Source: a virus. Taken from it: 64,000 nucleotides of DNA. Location: positions 79,986 through 143,985 of IMG/VR virus record IMGVR_UViG_3300044846_005229; one strand, 5' to 3'. Under the pieces are notes generated by a model. The model was given only the letters and a program-made list of their open reading frames with translations. It was not told the DNA's origin and ran no database searches. Both the position numbers and the translations under genes were made by a program. Positions 2,388 through 63,801 of this stretch are shown here, one piece after another; within the stretch, counting starts at the first letter, position 1; every line of letters begins with the position of its first letter.

Positions 2388-4205
2388 TTATTTTTTACCC
2401 TTGACCTTGTTTTCCATCTCTGATATTATAGAGTCTAATTCTCCATCGGAAATTCCACTTGTGGATTCGGCCTCATTTGACCCTTCCTCGGGGAGTTCCC
2501 CCGGTTCGGATTCCCCTGGTTCTTCAGCCAATGCAGAGTCTAAATCGGATAGTAAGGAGTCTAACTCTTTGTTGGCTTTGCTATTTTTCTTTTTTGGTTG
2601 CTTTTCTACAGGGGGTTGCTTTGTTGGAGTTTCTTCATTCGGAGTCGTCTCATCCGGGGTCTCTTCAGTTGGGGTCATCTCAACCGGAGCCTCTTCATCC
2701 AGGGTTTCTTCAGTCGGGGTCGTATCATCCGGGGTTTCTTCACCCTGAATTCCCTCATCCGGGGCCCCTTCATCTGGGGCCACCTCGTCCGGAGTCATCT
2801 CAGCCGGACCCCCTTCAGTAGGGGGAACCTCTGGGACTTCGCCCTCAGTGGTAGATCCTGGGACCCCTTCAGCATCCCCACCCGAACCATCATCAGGGCC
2901 AAAAATTGACTCATATAGGTTCTTATCCTTTTCAGGGTCAAACGTAGTTTCACCTTCGCTACCCTGTTGGCCCTCAGCAGATTTAGCCTCATCTTCCAGA
3001 TCAACTCTAAAGTGTCTCTCAATCCATTCTCTACGGGGTTTGAAACCATTTTGAATCAATAGGGAAACATCAGCGGGTGTCAGTTGGGACTCCTCAATTC
3101 TGAACTCCCTAGTTAAAGTCGGAGATGCAACATCAGCACCGAAATTTAAATCTACAATCCACCTTACCAAAGTTTGAGTTAGTTGATGACAGATCATTTC
3201 TGATATCTCAGATGCCCTCACCACTCGAACTACGTTGGCAACCATTGACGAAGCCCTGGAACCAGACTCAGCCTGCCCAGCTTCATTTTCACCGCAAATC
3301 AGAAGGCTAATGACTTTATCTAGGTAGTCAATCAAGCCTTTAAATACATCGGGGCTACCTTCAGGGTTTATAAAATCCAATACGAACCCTTCAGGTAAAA
3401 CCATCGCGGTCTCTTGGGATAAATTTGAGATCATCCCATAAATATTATCGATTTCGGCTGTTGATGCACTTAGGGGGGCAGTTGCTACGGTAGTCGGGGT
3501 TGCATATCTATCACCATAGAGAACATAAGACTCTAATGCCCTCCTCCTAAACTTCACCAGGGGGTATAAAATACGACCAATCGAAGAACCATAGGGATCC
3601 CCATTATGCTGAGTCCAGTACCTATTGATGATGAATTTACGCGCAGGTAGCTCGATACCTTCAAACATCCTGTTGAATGTCAAGCAACGCATTGTAAAAC
3701 CTGTTTGAGAATCCTCAGCTTCTTGGAAGACAAATCGGCGCTGGTCTCTAACTCGAACATCAAATGGGATGACACCCCGCTTGGTTTTTTTCCACATTAC
3801 TTCCGCAACACTGAAACCAACGATTAAGGCTTCGGCTAAGCCTTTGAAAATATCGTCTATTGGCAACTCTTCTAAAACTTCAGCTACAAAGTCCCTGACG
3901 GCTAAGTCTCCGGGTTTATCGCTGTATTCCTGAATATACCATGGCCTAGACGTAACTTCCTGGAGCAACTTAGAGTAAGAACCCTGGACTTGTTCATCCA
4001 ATAGCAACCTTTGGTAAGTTGATAATGCGCGATTACCCCCCTTTTGGATTAGTAGATCGTCATTAGGGCGAACAATGCTGGAACCAGTCCCCGTAAAAGG
4101 AGAGCTGGAACCAAACATGTAAATAGAACTAAGCGCATACGGGTTACTGATGTACGAGCTTATTTCACCGGTTGGGACAGGCGAGGTCTTAAATCTTTTG
4201 GCCAT
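2388..4205 (-). CDS. Portal protein, DUF935 / Mu gp29-like
   Basis: A 605-residue portal protein that should form the dodecameric DNA gate at the capsid vertex. Residues 1-400 follow the DUF935 pattern: a short divergent N-terminus, the helical block with YSKLLQEV and a region around the sequence GFSVAEVMWKK, then a PYGSSIGR..PLVKFRRRAL segment and the central LICGENEAGQAESGSRAS segment. The last 180 residues are an unusual acidic tail of imperfect repeats rich in Thr, Pro and Glu (units like TPTEETPDE), ending in a basic patch and a short acidic amphipathic end. The tail is much longer than in Mu. It lies between the protease/scaffold gene (2 bp away) and the gp25-like gene, consistent with an assembly operon. 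Confidence 0.85.
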   Translation of the reverse strand: MAKRFKTSPVPTGEISSYISNPYALSSIYMFGSSSPFTGTGSSIVRPNDDLLIQKGGNRALSTYQRLLLDEQVQGSYSKLLQEVTSRPWYIQEYSDKPGDLAVRDFVAEVLEELPIDDIFKGLAEALIVGFSVAEVMWKKTKRGVIPFDVRVRDQRRFVFQEAEDSQTGFTMRCLTFNRMFEGIELPARKFIINRYWTQHNGDPYGSSIGRILYPLVKFRRRALESYVLYGDRYATPTTVATAPLSASTAEIDNIYGMISNLSQETAMVLPEGFVLDFINPEGSPDVFKGLIDYLDKVISLLICGENEAGQAESGSRASSMVANVVRVVRASEISEMICHQLTQTLVRWIVDLNFGADVASPTLTREFRIEESQLTPADVSLLIQNGFKPRREWIERHFRVDLEDEAKSAEGQQGSEGETTFDPEKDKNLYESIFGPDDGSGGDAEGVPGSTTEGEVPEVPPTEGGPAEMTPDEVAPDEGAPDEGIQGEETPDDTTPTEETLDEEAPVEMTPTEETPDETTPNEETPTKQPPVEKQPKKKNSKANKELDSLLSDLDSALAEEPGESEPGELPEEGSNEAESTSGISDGELDSIISEMENKVKGKK

Positions 4206-4274
4206 TGCCTTCCCCCTTGTTGATATGATGTTTGACCAAGCTACTAAATGTTATGCTGTAGAGGTTTTACCCCG

Positions 4275-26414: not shown

Positions 26415-26797
26415 CTACCTGTAAAAGTAAAGTTGGGGTTTCGTGGCTTCTTCATACCGAGAGTATCCAATAAATTGACCCGAATAGGCATCAACCCATG
26501 GTAAGATCCACTTAAAGAAGGCTTCGATTTCCTGATAATAATTCTTAATGTCACCCTTTCCTAGAAGAGACCATTGCTTTGAAATTTCGTCGTAGTCTAA
26601 AAATTTACAGTGCGTTCTCGGAGTGTAGTAGCTGCAATCAGAAAAGAGGCTGTGCCAACGATCCGGAAAGCCTTTAGAGCATCGTCCGCATCGCCCTCTT
26701 CCAGTTTCCCGCACATTGCCTTGAGCACATTAAGGACCTCGTCAGGGGTTTCCTGCTTGAGGTCCACATTCACATAAATTTCTGTGTACATTCCCAT
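26415..26797 (-). pseudogene. Frameshifted conserved small phage gene
   Basis: Two overlapping frames together restore one protein that I recall as a common phage family beginning MGMYTEIYVNVDLKQETPDE. The first frame (26797-26597) gives 42 good residues ending DALK and then an unrelated tail. The second frame (from 26672 to 26415) supplies GFPDRWHSLFSDCSYYTPRT and then QWSLLGKGDIKNYYQEIE to YFYR. Joining them at AAG (26674-26672) by a -1 step gives a normal 127-residue product. No canonical slippery heptamer is present, so a one-base deletion is the simplest cause; sequence error is possible. Confidence 0.7.
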
Positions 26798-59512: not shown

Positions 59513-59739
59513 TTTTTTCTCCGGGGTGTCTGTCTATTGTAGCATAGTGCTGGGGGGTTGGGGTTTGCGGGTCGGGTGCCTCGGGATGGATGCCAGGGGT
59601 TGGATTCCAGGGGTTGGATTCCAGGGGTATCGTTGACTCCTAGGGGTGAGGTGGACAGTTTGTTAAGTGTCCATCTGACCTAAAGGAGTATCGTGCCAGG
59701 GAGTTTGGTGCCCAAGGGTTAGTGCCAGTATTAGACTTT
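59513..59739. repeat. Spacer with TTGGATTCCAGGGG repeats and a GACAGTTT palindrome
   Basis: It contains two or three TTGGATTCCAGGGG repeats (59599-59630) and a partly symmetric GACAGTTTGTTAAGTGTC at 59654-59671 that also occurs, as a perfect palindrome, before element B. No gene. It is directly followed by element A. Confidence 0.55.
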
Positions 59740-59936
59740 GGGTGCGTTTTATGAGTAATGTGGAACCTCAGGGTGCTTTTTGCGAGTAATGTGGAACGCC
59801 CCAAAATAAAAATCGAAAATTCAATCCTTGAGATCGACTGCAGCGGAACGGAGTTACTCCTAAAAAAATTAAAAATTTTAGGACCTAGTTGAAATCCATC
59901 CAAAAAATTCTACATTTGAATGCATATTATGCACCC
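59740..59936. other. Structured element A (first of three copies)
   Basis: A 197-bp element. Its left part has two direct copies of GGGTGC(n)TTTT..AGTAATGTGGAA spaced 31 bp (59740, 59771). The right end has the inverted counterpart ATTCTACATT...TGCACCC. The centre holds a TCCTAAAA/TTTTAGGA hairpin and a GAGATCGACTGCAG block. Lengths differ by no more than two bases between copies. On the minus strand one frame is open across the whole element, but its start would be TTG just after TAG. Confidence 0.75.
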
Positions 59937-60046
59937 TACTACTATAATCGCATATAAATTATTTAATAGAGTGTACTTATGTTAGTTGTACAATCAATAA
60001 GTTTTTCTTATTCTTAGGTACAATCAATGAGTTAAGGGCCAGAAGA
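59937..60046. other. AT-rich spacer after element A
   Basis: AT-rich sequence with ACTATAAT and ATATAAATTATTTAATAG (plus strand), the same flank as seen after element C. It could be a promoter region or an unwinding region. A GTACAATCAAT repeat occurs twice. No ORF. Confidence 0.4.
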
Positions 60047-60083
60047 CAAAAAAAAAGGGGGGATAACCCTAAGGCAATCCCCC
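60047..60083 (-). terminator. Intrinsic terminator of the 60110 gene
   Basis: GGGGGAT...ATCCCCC hairpin with nine A at the left (plus strand), so the minus RNA ends in a strong stem and U9. Confidence 0.8.
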
Positions 60084-60109
60084 ATTCTTTGTACTAAGTT
60101 TATCGCCAA

Positions 60110-60448
60110 TCAATCATTCTTGGCCTTCCATGCACGCAACCGGCTAATTGCCTCCTCTACGCTGCTGGCATTAGACTTGCGGAATTTGGCCGTTTTGCTA
60201 TAGGAAAACATTTCAATCTTCCCACCCCCGATGGAAAACATTGCGTAGCGGGAATTGTGGAAGATTCCGTTAATCCATTCTTCCTTAGGGTCTAGGGATA
60301 CCTTGACGATTAGGGAAGCGTTTTGCTCACCGCCAAGGGTAGACCTTTGCACAGAAGAAACCGGGAAGGTGGCATTCAGGGAAGCAGCCAGGGTGTCGCG
60401 ATCGGTTTCGGTCGGGATGAAGGCAGTTGCGAGGGTTGCGGTGGCCAT
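60110..60448 (-). CDS. Array protein of 112 residues
   Basis: A 112-residue protein, MATATLATAFIPTETDRDTL then SLIVKVSLDPKEEWINGIF and a basic C-terminus (AISRLRAWKAKND). Beta-rich centre. Promoter TATAAT at 60480-60475. Confidence 0.6.
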   Translation of the reverse strand: MATATLATAFIPTETDRDTLAASLNATFPVSSVQRSTLGGEQNASLIVKVSLDPKEEWINGIFHNSRYAMFSIGGGKIEMFSYSKTAKFRKSNASSVEEAISRLRAWKAKND

Positions 60449-60526
60449 GGGGCGCTCCGGTGGGTGACCCTGTAATTATAGCACGAAAGGGAAGGGGGCG
60501 CAAGCCCCCCAACCCCCGGCCATCAC

Positions 60527-60823
60527 TCACACAGCAGGGACCCGGCTACCGGCAGCGATCACCCCTTTGCCTTTCATCTCATCCAGCAGGGTAACGAAAG
60601 CGGCAGCGATGGCGTTCTTGGTGGCACGACCGGTTAGCTCAACCCGGAAACTCCGGCAGCTGAAGGGCAGGCATGTGAACATGCTGTAGCCGGTGCGGGT
60701 CTCTACAGTGCCCTCACTGGCAGTAACCCTAGCAGGGCGGCCAGCGGGCTTGTAGAAGGTTACCTGGAAGACAGCTCCAGGGTTGTCAAGGCTGTTCACG
60801 TAGAAGGAATTGGGGGTTGCCAT
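60527..60823 (-). CDS. Array protein of 98 residues
   Basis: A 98-residue protein from ATG 60823, MATPNSFYVNSLDNPGAVFQ, beta-rich, with two Cys in MFTCLPFSCRSF and a helical end. Promoter TACAAT at 60865-60860. Confidence 0.55.
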   Translation of the reverse strand: MATPNSFYVNSLDNPGAVFQVTFYKPAGRPARVTASEGTVETRTGYSMFTCLPFSCRSFRVELTGRATKNAIAAAFVTLLDEMKGKGVIAAGSRVPAV

Positions 60824-60910
60824 TGCGGTTCGGGGTGGTTGCCGTTGGTTGACTCTGTAATTGTACCATACAGCAGGCAGGGGGGCGCAAGCCCCCAACC
60901 ACTCAAGGCA

Positions 60911-61243
60911 TCAAATGGCCAGGGCTCGGACGCCTATGATCTTGCCTTCCCCGTCTCTCACTACGTTCTGGGGGCCAGTATCTGGGCGGTAAAGATCGGT
61001 CCGGTTGGGGGCTGCCTGTTGAACCAACATAGAAACAACAAAAATAGTACCCTCTTCGGGATCAGGGAGATTCTCTACATCCCCAAAAGTAGTCCGGGTG
61101 ACGGGGATTCCATTAATTTTGAATACCTCTTCTGTTACTGAAGATACCCGTGCCGCAGGAGCGGTTGGGGCAATAGTAAAGACTTCTCCGTTCTCCTTGT
61201 ACAGATGAAGGGGGTGGGGGGTGAGGTTGATGATGGTGGCCAT
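60911..61243 (-). CDS. Array protein of 110 residues
   Basis: A 110-residue protein, MATIINLTPHPLHLYKENGE then VFTIAPTAPAARVSSVTEEV and a C-terminal GPQNVVRDGEGKIIGVRAL. The start INLTPHPLHLY is one I have seen in many phage and bacterial small proteins of unknown function. Promoter TATAAT at 61278-61273. Confidence 0.65.
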   Translation of the reverse strand: MATIINLTPHPLHLYKENGEVFTIAPTAPAARVSSVTEEVFKINGIPVTRTTFGDVENLPDPEEGTIFVVSMLVQQAAPNRTDLYRPDTGPQNVVRDGEGKIIGVRALAI

Positions 61244-61326
61244 TGCGGCGTTCCGGTGTGGTTGACTCTGTAATTATAGCACAAAGGGGAAGGGGGGCAA
61301 CCCTAAGGCAAACCCCAGGCCATCAC

Positions 61327-61575
61327 TCACACGGCGGGCAGGTAAATCTCTAGGGTATAGGTAACCTCAGCCTCATTATAGGCAGCCAAGGTATCGGCCA
61401 GCTCCCCAAGTGACACATAGTCGCTGTATTCACCATCATCTACAAGGAAATCGACCTCATCGCCATCGGCAGGTTCTTCCGACAGGAAGGGAGCGCAGAA
61501 CGGGCTCAGCGTAACGGGCAAGGTGGCGAGGATTTCAGCCAGGGTAGGAGCAGTGGGGGCGGTTGCGGTAGCCAT
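61327..61575 (-). CDS. Array protein of 82 residues, possible relative of 58973
   Basis: An 82-residue acidic protein, MATATAPTAPTLAEILATLP and a PADGDEVDFLVDDGEYSDYV centre. Promoter TATAAT at 61608-61603. Confidence 0.6.
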   Translation of the reverse strand: MATATAPTAPTLAEILATLPVTLSPFCAPFLSEEPADGDEVDFLVDDGEYSDYVSLGELADTLAAYNEAEVTYTLEIYLPAV

Positions 61576-61643
61576 GGTGCGGTCTCGGTGGGTGACTCTG
61601 TAATTATAGCACGAAAGGGAAGGGGGCGCAAGCCCCCCACAAG

Positions 61644-61823
61644 TTAGAATCTGATGACGGGATGGCCGGGGTCAAGAGTGTCACATGCTTCAGTTGTGAA
61701 AACCAACTTAACTTTCTGGCCAAAATGCTCATCAATTCCCTCGTCATAAACTGTAACGTTAGAGTCTAGTTGTTCATCGGTGAATTGTTGCAGTTGCTGA
61801 AGCAGTTCCCGGTAGGTAATCAT
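61644..61823 (-). CDS. Array protein of 59 residues
   Basis: A 59-residue protein from ATG 61823, MITYRELLQQLQQFTDEQLD then SNVTVYDEGIDEHFG. The MITYRELL...QLD...VTV order is a small family I recall from bacteria and phages. Promoter AATAAT at 61853-61848. Confidence 0.65.
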   Translation of the reverse strand: MITYRELLQQLQQFTDEQLDSNVTVYDEGIDEHFGQKVKLVFTTEACDTLDPGHPVIRF

Positions 61824-61889
61824 TGCGGTTCGGTGTGGGACCCCTTAATTATTACACATCGGTAGGCAGAACGCAAGAGGCCGGGTCGT

Positions 61890-61982
61890 TTGTTTGCGTT
61901 TTGTGACAGTGCCACGCGAGTAGTATGTTTGTACTAACTGACCCGGTATCAATACCAGTAGGCAATGAGTTTGCCTAAGTAT
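61890..61982. repeat. Regulatory repeat spacer with palindrome
   Basis: TTTGTTTGCGTTTTGTG box and palindrome TAGTATGTTTGTACTA at 61921-61936, the last copy of its family before the window end. Confidence 0.65.
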
Positions 61983-62011
61983 AAAAAAAAGAGGGGGCTG
62001 TCAACCCCCCC
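61983..62011 (-). terminator. Intrinsic terminator of the 62035 gene
   Basis: GGGGGCTGTCAACCCCC-type stem with eight A at the left on the plus strand (U-rich minus RNA). Confidence 0.75.
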
Positions 62012-62034
62012 TAACTCAACTATCATTCTTACCA

Positions 62035-62271
62035 TCATTCGCAAACTTTCGGTAGTACGGTACCATGCACCAAATAGCCATACCTTTCGATGCCATACTT
62101 GTGCAAAATATGCACATTGGGCCATGATTCGCCTTGTCCCCAAGTACCTGACTGACTCATACGCTCAAAAGCACATTCAACGCTGTTACGCAGCCAGGAA
62201 TGATCGATACGGGATGCTGATGCCGCTTGGTTGCTGCGGTAGTTGCGGTACTTGGGGGCGGGGAATGCCAT
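62035..62271 (-). CDS. Array protein of 78 residues
   Basis: A 78-residue protein from ATG 62271, MAFPAPKYRNYRSNQAASAS then NSVECAFERMSQSGTWGQGE and GIERYGYLVHGTVLPKVCE. The frame extends far upstream through element B, but the promoter (TATAAT at 62304-62299) shows that the gene begins here. Confidence 0.6.
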   Translation of the reverse strand: MAFPAPKYRNYRSNQAASASRIDHSWLRNSVECAFERMSQSGTWGQGESWPNVHILHKYGIERYGYLVHGTVLPKVCE

Positions 62272-62357
62272 TGTTGCCGGTGGTTGGTTGGCTCCGTAAT
62301 TATAGCACATTGCCTCGGGGGTTGGGGCCCCGGATTGCTGACTCCCAAGGTGTGGTG

Positions 62358-62375
62358 GACAGTTTGTAAACTGTC
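62358..62375. other. Perfect palindrome GACAGTTTGTAAACTGTC
   Basis: An 8-bp arm palindrome with a 2-bp centre. The same region before element A has a decayed form. It may be a protein binding site linked with the element. Confidence 0.6.
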
Positions 62376-62415
62376 TATTTGACTTCGTGAGTTTGACTTT
62401 TAGGGTTTGATTCTG

Positions 62416-62613
62416 GGGTGTGTTTTCGGGGTCAATGTGGAATCTCAGAGTGCTTTTTGCAGGTAATGTAGAATGCCTAATTTGAAAAGTCTGAAAGTCA
62501 ACCGCTGAGATCGACTGCAGGGCAACGGAGTTACTCCTAAAAAAATTAAAAATTTTAGGACCTAGTGAAAAACGATCCAAAAAATTCTACATTTGAATGC
62601 ATATTCTGCACCC
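62416..62613. other. Structured element B (second copy)
   Basis: A 198-bp copy with perfect AATGTAGAAT/ATTCTACATT arms. The outer GGGTGC/GCACCC stem shows one exchange. The centre has the same TCCTAAAAAAATT hairpin as copy A. It is followed by an AT-rich flank with GTATAATAAGTG. Confidence 0.75.
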
Positions 62614-62777
62614 TAGGGTCTTTATATACACTTTTTCGCGAATATATGTATAATAAGTGTTTATTCTATGTTGTTATAGTTTGTTGTTGATGAGTCCAAG
62701 TAATAAACAACTGGGATACGGTCTCAACAGTCTCAGTTAAGTATCGGAATGATGTCACACTTCAAGAGTAAGCAGAT
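62614..62777. other. Spacer between elements B and C
   Basis: AT-rich at the left with TATATAC and TATAAT sequences. The right half (62690-62777) has normal composition. No ORF or clear repeat is seen. Confidence 0.35.
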
Positions 62778-62973
62778 GGGTGCGTTTTTCCAGTAATGTA
62801 GAAACCCGGGGTGCATTTTGCCGGTAATGTAGAATGCCCCAAATTAAAAACCTGAAATTCAATCCCTGAGATCGACTGCAGGGGAACGGAGTTACTCCTA
62901 AAATTTTTGAATTTTTTAGGACCTAATGGAAAACCATCCAAAAAATTCTACATTTGAATGCAAATTCTGCACC
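62778..62973. other. Structured element C (third copy)
   Basis: A 196-bp copy with the two direct motifs at 62778 and 62809 and perfect AATGTAGAAT/ATTCTACATT arms. The central hairpin arm changed from AAAAAAATT to AAAATTTTT on one side and its partner changed with it, so the ability to pair is kept. Confidence 0.75.
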
Positions 62974-63198
62974 CTACTACTATATACTCGCGTAAAAATT
63001 ATTTAATAGAAGACTCTTATCTTAATGTCTAGACAGATAAGTAATTCTTATCAATCTAATCCCCCATCAAACCGCAATGTTGTGGGCTATTCGAGGATGC
63101 TAACCGGAGTCTCACCAAATAGCAAAGGGGCCGATGCCTAAGCACCAACCCCCAAACATTAAACTAAGGTCAATCTAAGGCCAAACCAAAGTCCGAAT
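62974..63198. other. Spacer after element C
   Basis: The first 45 bp repeat the AT-rich flank of element A (ATTATTTAATAG). The rest holds TAAGTAATTCTTATC and normal sequence, including AACCGGAGTCTCACC, with no gene. Confidence 0.35.
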
Positions 63199-63384: not shown

Positions 63385-63539
63385 TGTGGCGGTGTTGGTT
63401 GGTTGGTGACAGGTGAATTGTAGCATGGTGGCCGGGGGCTGTCAATGCCGTTGTGGCAAGGGGGCCCAGTTCTCAAAATTTTCGGAGGGGGCGTTAGCCC
63501 CTTGCCATCTGGTTATAACCCTCTGGCTACCATCCCTAG

Positions 63540-63603
63540 GCATCAATCCCAGGGCATCAATCCCAGGGCATCAATCCCAGGGCATCAATCCCAGGGCATC
63601 ATC
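63540..63603. repeat. Five short GGCATCAATCCCAG repeats
   Basis: Units of GGCATCAATCCCAG repeat about five times (63540-63603) at the 3' end of the next gene. A slipped repeat that may extend the coding end. Confidence 0.7.
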
Positions 63604-63801
63604 CCCTAGGCTAGGCCGTGAGAACTTCGGGTATATACCCCCTGTCCTAATCAGCCACCCAGCATCCACAAGGTCTTGGGCAGCATCGAGAACGCCCGCA
63701 ACGTGGAAGTAGCCGACAAGACCCACCGTATCAACGGATACACCTGGGCGGTTCAGGAAGTACAGCTTAAGGGACTCGCGGATCCACTCAGGGGATTTCA
63801 T
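63571..63801 (-). CDS. Array protein of 76 residues
   Basis: A 76-residue protein from ATG 63801, MKSPEWIRESLKLYFLNRPG then VSVDTVGLVGYFHVAGVLD and DLVDAGWLIRTG. It resembles a small winged-helix in its helix order. Its end runs into the GGCATCAATCCCAG repeats. Promoter TATACT at 63831-63826. Confidence 0.6.
   Translation of the reverse strand: MKSPEWIRESLKLYFLNRPGVSVDTVGLVGYFHVAGVLDAAQDLVDAGWLIRTGGIYPKFSRPSLGDDALGLMPWD

Follow-up and report, generated by a model that had tools for sequence, protein, structure and literature searches.

A multi-copy intergenic element of a jumbo phage with phased iterons and an adjoining AT-rich flank: a putative origin-like module

In phage lambda and in iteron plasmids, an initiator protein binds repeated iterons and opens a neighbouring A+T-rich region (PMC5043065). 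T4 is an example of a phage that can rely on more than one origin with an unwinding element (PMC3016281). A non-coding element of about 200 bp with comparable parts was found in a stretch of 64,000 nt, referred to as the window (G000:C1:79986-143985), of the IMG/VR virus record IMGVR_UViG_3300044846_005229. The record comprises 279,339 bp and represents a jumbo phage (G000), for which portal, sheath, DNA polymerase and topoisomerase genes indicated a tailed myophage. Its DNA polymerase had the Synechococcus phage S-CBWM1 as top relative (54.6%), followed by the S-TIM5 group (36%), and the host is therefore probably a cyanobacterium. Since phased iterons, a fixed geometry and adjoining unwinding DNA make up the scheme of lambda and the iteron plasmids, the element is read as a putative origin-like module of iterons and an unwinding element, present in multiple, recombining copies. 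This reading is tentative and is held with somewhat less than even confidence.

Eight full copies were present in G000, all on the plus strand and within a span of 15 kb (139.7-154.4 kb). Two related contigs held four further copies, three in G010 and one in L037, and the orientation was the same in 12 of 12. The three copies in the window showed 78-86% mutual identity over 208 nt (Table 1). An initial annotation of the sequence had proposed these three elements; the first two were recovered at the positions given there, and the third extended one base further. Its description applied to all three: a pair of direct motifs at a distance of 31 bp, an inverted motif at the opposite end and an AT-rich flank after the copy.

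Each copy comprised two to four direct iterons of the type GGGTGYNTTTTNNNRGTAATGTRGAA, followed by one inverted iteron; the copy in L037 had four direct iterons. The 28 direct iterons of the 12 copies were spaced by 30-33 bp, mostly 31 bp, and are in helical phase like those of iteron origins. The distance from the innermost direct core to the inverted core was exactly 120 bp in every copy (12/12). Between them lay a conserved CTGAGATCSNYTGCRG..AACGGAGTTACTCC segment and an AT-rich palindrome. A DnaA box was considered for the iteron core and rejected by inspection, as the core resembles TTTTCCACA in the last seven bases only and allows C/T at a normally fixed position. The palindrome had been described earlier as a hairpin kept despite a changing loop. 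Its arms TCCTAAAA and TTTTAGGA were indeed present in all three window copies, but the stems were invariant and the loop occurred in two discrete forms. Compared as reverse complements, the forms AAATTAAAAA and TTTTTGAATT had 2 mismatches in 10 positions, versus 6 in 10 in direct comparison, although in such an AT-rich stretch chance resemblance is not negligible. Because the forms are closer to reverse complements than to direct matches, inversion accounts for them better than substitution with the structure kept. A small inversion of the hairpin loop, later spread by exchange between copies, would be the simplest account.

The inner 148 columns of the 12 aligned copies contained zero gaps versus at least 76 substitutions, whereas nine alignments of flanking non-coding sequence held 26 gap openings per 157 substitutions. 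About 12.6 indels were expected in the inner element and none was observed (Poisson P ~3e-6, a rough value, given alignments of overlapping ancestry, non-independent pairs and the inclusion of some end gaps). No alignment was used to locate the iteron cores on which the spacing is based. Because indels were absent inside the element and common around it, its length appears to be constrained while part of its sequence varies, as expected for protein sites held in register.

Stability was calculated by summing nearest-neighbour values in 100-bp intervals over ~276 kb. Right flanks of the element ranked 1, 3, 4, 5, 12 and 16, thus providing 6 of the 16 least stable intervals listed, including the lowest; like iteron origins, the element adjoins an easily melted A+T-rich region. 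The right flanks of the copies at 145.8 and 149.4 kb were milder, at about the top 1-3% least stable. Despite the minima in the flanks, the mean stability of the element cluster was above the genome mean. The second least stable interval, G000:C1:155478-155577 (L027 ~19478), was located in the same region beside repeated AACACTATCGTTATA-type motifs and the turning point of the GC skew.

Three or four of the four copies on the related contigs were found at positions matching G000 loci. The copy at 139.7 kb corresponded to G010 48.4, and the pair at 142.4/142.7 kb to the single copy G010 50.3, with homologous flanking genes. The copy at 154.1 kb matched that of L037, and the pair at 145.8/146.4 kb probably matches G010 53.1, judged from the flanks alone. 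Identity between the phages at the 142.4/142.7 locus was 100% in the left, non-coding flank and 80-90% in the right-hand gene. Pairs in G000 were single copies in G010, with a left flank resembling that of the first copy of the pair and a right flank resembling that of the second. Mosaic copies were also present, in which sub-segments matched different partners. These hybrid flanks and mosaic sub-segments point to recombination of the copies with one another.

Searches for further carriers covered collections that may leave out very near records. Similarity searches of phage and plasmid records yielded no match to the element, and neither did exact patterns run against prokaryote genomes. Among viruses, three patterns of the element and one of the iteron pair gave matches in G010 and L037 only, besides G000, and protein scans for relatives with two genes of the cluster added no carrier. 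The earlier statement that no known feature names the element held for Rfam and the collections searched, at the sensitivity used. At that sensitivity, the element appears to be without sequence relatives outside this phage group; its architecture is akin to known origins, and it is a possible new variant rather than a demonstrated member.

The copies are located in a GC-rich region with many small open reading frames (ORFs), most of them with extended -10 promoters of the TGTGCTATAAT type. Long ORFs across G000 were nearly all on the minus strand, opposite to the elements. T4-type late promoters (TATAAATA) were seldom found upstream of G000 genes, with none in the gene leaders of the element cluster. 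Small ORFs and host-type promoters suggest early expression, and the region resembles an early host-takeover region.

The element would be a binding platform of double-stranded DNA rather than an RNA gene. A sequence-specific protein, from phage or host, would bind the two to four direct iterons, which lie three helical turns (~31 bp) apart, and also the inverted iteron at the fixed distance. The bound protein may bend or loop the intervening DNA with the AT palindrome at its centre; next to the inverted iteron, it may load onto the strongly AT-rich flank or melt it. Initiation of DNA replication would be the likeliest role, with several copies spread over the early-type small-gene region. Recombination between copies would account for the mosaic copies, for loci that are single in one phage and paired in another, and perhaps for gene turnover between copies. 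Protein binding, DNA opening and replication start at the element are our inference.

The phage lambda origin is similar in that repeated binding sites adjoin a strongly AT-rich region within a phage genome. In lambda, the one origin lies within the O gene and its iterons are inverted repeats of 19 bp, whereas here eight intergenic copies with 31-bp spacing were present and no initiator was identified. Iteron plasmids (P1, RK2, F, pSC101, R6K) share helically phased direct iterons and an adjoining unwinding element; in contrast to these, no linked rep gene was found here, one inverted iteron lies at the fixed 120 bp and the genome carries many copies. T4 oriF and oriG, which consist of a middle promoter and an unwinding element forming an R-loop, resemble the present case in the presence of several origins per genome, in an A+T-rich element of ~100 bp and in promoter-like sites, which here are directed at some of the element copies. 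T4 origins have little mutual sequence homology and no iterons, and the promoters here are consensus matches only, confined to the B flanks and the upstream side of the 154.1-kb copy.

Among the three candidates of the initial annotation, an origin or partition site was the best supported, by the phased iterons, the 120-bp geometry without indels, the adjoining least stable DNA and the fixed positions of the copies; the GC skew disfavoured it. Cumulative skew was lowest near 100 kb and peaked next to the cluster, near 156 kb, which is the opposite of a simple bidirectional origin with bacterial-type skew. The skew minimum of an iteron origin was thus not located at the elements, although skew is a supporting rather than a defining character and is weak in phages. 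Several other points also weigh against an origin. Pfam searches of G000 for an initiator with DnaB_C and AAA were negative, with the phage proteins mostly unannotated and only part of them scanned. An origin would not usually come in eight closely spaced copies, and the iteron core TTCYACATTA is no more than DnaA-box-like. The copies are interrelated, so that their common melting minima are not independent observations. In S-CBWM1, the least stable intervals had no comparable module, and its intergenic repeats were without the motif or geometry of the element.

Among the alternatives, a transcription-control site survives best, although it is unlikely. A regulator, either an activator or a repressor of the phage, would bind the iterons and the AT-rich flanks would act as promoters, with the element as enhancer, insulator or switch for the small-gene operons or for plus-strand transcripts. 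Every module has the end of one minus-strand gene on one side and the next gene's promoter region on the other. Five plus-strand promoter matches in the 20-kb region scored 10/12 or better, and all of them fell into modules or adjacent small-RNA units, three in flanks of the B type and two ahead of the RNA motif described below; TATA-like boxes were also seen next to the inverted iteron, in flanks of both types. The promoter-like sites in the B flanks and ahead of the 154.1-kb copy give this reading some weight. However, no hexamer spacing was common to flanks A and B, and the downstream minus-strand genes carry extended -10 promoters of their own (TGTGCTATAAT type). Elements of 200 bp with fixed geometry would also be uncommonly elaborate as operators.

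A small non-autonomous mobile element, which had been among the initial candidates, or a site-specific recombination site is improbable. The iterons would be transposase or recombinase sites and GGGTGC/GCACCC the ends. Short terminal inverted repeats, multiple subterminal sites, single versus paired copies across relatives and the mosaic copies agree with such an element, and a size of ~200 bp, the terminal repeats and the copy number are shared with miniature inverted-repeat transposable elements. Unlike these, all copies had a single orientation (12/12) and shared flanks, and neither related transposase ends, target-site duplications, on inspection of the ends, nor an empty site were found. 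The G000 copies were confined to 15 kb rather than dispersed, their flanks were conserved between phages, and loci matched in the relatives. The mosaics are explicable by homologous recombination between repeats and need no dedicated enzyme; a search for tyrosine recombinases (integrases) was without match. G000 carries a TnpB-type gene elsewhere, which would favour mobility, but its region showed no similarity to the elements in a repeat search. This gene (OrfB_IS605, E 1.4e-31) is located at G000:C1:6808-7152 on the minus strand, in an open frame of 417 amino acids.

Transcription across the element to give a structured small RNA or an RNA leader is more doubtful still. A structured small RNA had been among the initial candidates, and paired changes had been reported, which were hardly seen: RNAalifold predicted 34 pairs for the 12 related sequences, a number with limited power for covariation, and a double change occurred in only one of the 34 pairs. 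The covariation term contributed -0.71 of -24.14 kcal/mol, and the central stems and most of the end pairing were invariant. The reported GGGTGC/GCACCC end pairing was present, but it is a consequence of the inverted iteron and lends a folded RNA no separate support. Full-length folding z-scores reached about -4.9 in some copies, and a promoter-like plus-strand unit was present upstream of the 154.1-kb copy and in the B flanks. On the other hand, z-scores were alike on the plus and minus strands rather than strand-specific, several copies folded scarcely better than shuffles (z -0.8 to -1.2), the number of direct repeats was not fixed (two to four) and the Rfam search of the element gave no family match. 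The element would fold because its sites are inverted in the DNA. The least probable explanation is a repeat without present function, expanded by duplication and kept similar via recombination: gene-conversion-like mosaics and the occurrence in just three virus records speak for it, but exact spacing, zero indels inside versus common indels around, the melting minima and a non-coding flank conserved at one locus as much as or more than the neighbouring gene argue against it.

A conserved, unannotated RNA-like unit (GAGGGGCGRGGTAGCCCTGANGACGAAAAAGGTCGYCAC) was detected separately at L027:16450-16575 and L027:17995-18115 (plus strand; 152.4 and 154.0 kb in G000), at L037:2040-2170 and 4095-4215, and in L056-L077. 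Both G000 copies were preceded by a perfect sigma-70 consensus match, and the one at 154.0 kb reads toward an element copy. Its exact pattern matched 22 other viral contigs, with a terminator-like hairpin after some copies; the stretches scanned gave no Rfam match.

To our knowledge, the origins of jumbo phages and S-CBWM1-like cyanophages are largely unmapped. The repeated element with its exact geometry is a concrete origin candidate and a handle for finding its binding protein. If the copies act as recombination points, they offer a mechanism for rapid turnover of small genes in the region. A speculative extension, to which we give little credence, is that at least five iteron-origin loci with eight elements in the small-gene region of a jumbo cyanophage double as replication starts and recombination hubs for duplication, loss and inter-phage exchange of small genes.

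Table 1. Features of the three window copies and their surroundings (window positions)
Feature	Position	Strand	Remark
Element copy 1	59740..59936	+	Two direct iterons, central hairpin, one inverted iteron
Copy 1, first direct iteron core	59757..59765	+	AATGTGGAA
Copy 1, second direct iteron core	59788..59796	+	31 bp from first
Copy 1, AT-rich hairpin	59858..59883		TCCTAAAA-N10-TTTTAGGA, loop form 1 AAATTAAAAA
Copy 1, inverted iteron core	59908..59916	-	120 bp from innermost direct core
Copy 1, left-flank palindrome	59653..59672		GGACAGTTTGTTAAGTGTCC
Copy 1, AT-rich right flank	59937..60040		Least stable 100-bp interval in ~276 kb; candidate unwinding element
Terminator-like hairpin and T run	60045..60090	-	For minus-strand gene 60110-60448; far end of intergenic module; read from sequence
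Element copy 2	62416..62613	+	First of pair, B type
Copy 2, left-flank palindrome	62358..62375		GACAGTTTGTAAACTGTC
Copy 2, direct iteron cores	62434..62473	+	At 62434 and 62465, 31 bp apart
Copy 2, AT-rich hairpin	62535..62560		TCCTAAAA-N10-TTTTAGGA, loop form 1
Copy 2, inverted iteron core	62585..62593	-	120 bp spacing
Segment M between paired copies	62614..62777		AT-rich B flank, then GGTCTCA/TGAGACC-type hairpins
Promoter-like TATACA-18-TATAAT	62625..62654	+	10/12, in B flank, directed at copy 3; consensus match only
Element copy 3	62778..62974	+	Second of pair, A type
Copy 3, direct iteron cores	62795..62834	+	At 62795 and 62826, 31 bp apart
Copy 3, AT-rich hairpin	62896..62921		TCCTAAAA-N10-TTTTAGGA, loop in opposite sense TTTTTGAATT
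Copy 3, inverted iteron core	62946..62954	-	120 bp spacing
Copy 3, AT-rich right flank	62975..63060

Segment M was not found at the matching locus of G010. The segments between paired elements (G000:C1:146078-146350 and 149577-149900; window 62614-62777) contained hairpin units of GGTCTCAACAGTCTCA...TGAGAC in tandem, and the number of units varied. Other repeats were also detected. A tandem 14-bp repeat (GGCATCAATCCCAG) was present in several copies at window positions 63525-63608, and a repeat family of 90-310 bp with 68-96% identity occupied G000:C1:129903-138718 in the same GC-rich small-gene region. S-CBWM1 (MG450654.1) carries an unannotated intergenic repeat of ~57-150 bp (TTTCCTGAGG..TATGTGAAAGATTCGAAACTGTCCCATGGC) in both orientations, at 26517, 65805, 84557, 96335, 126584, 135629 and 10458.

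Just left of the window, 12 matches to the group I intron family of Rfam (57-102 bits) were distributed over 5.7 kb at G000:C1:72199-77911 (L029:12235-17911, minus strand). The stretches between them were collinear with the S-CBWM1 major capsid protein, and the capsid gene therefore appears to consist of about a dozen exons separated by predicted group I introns.

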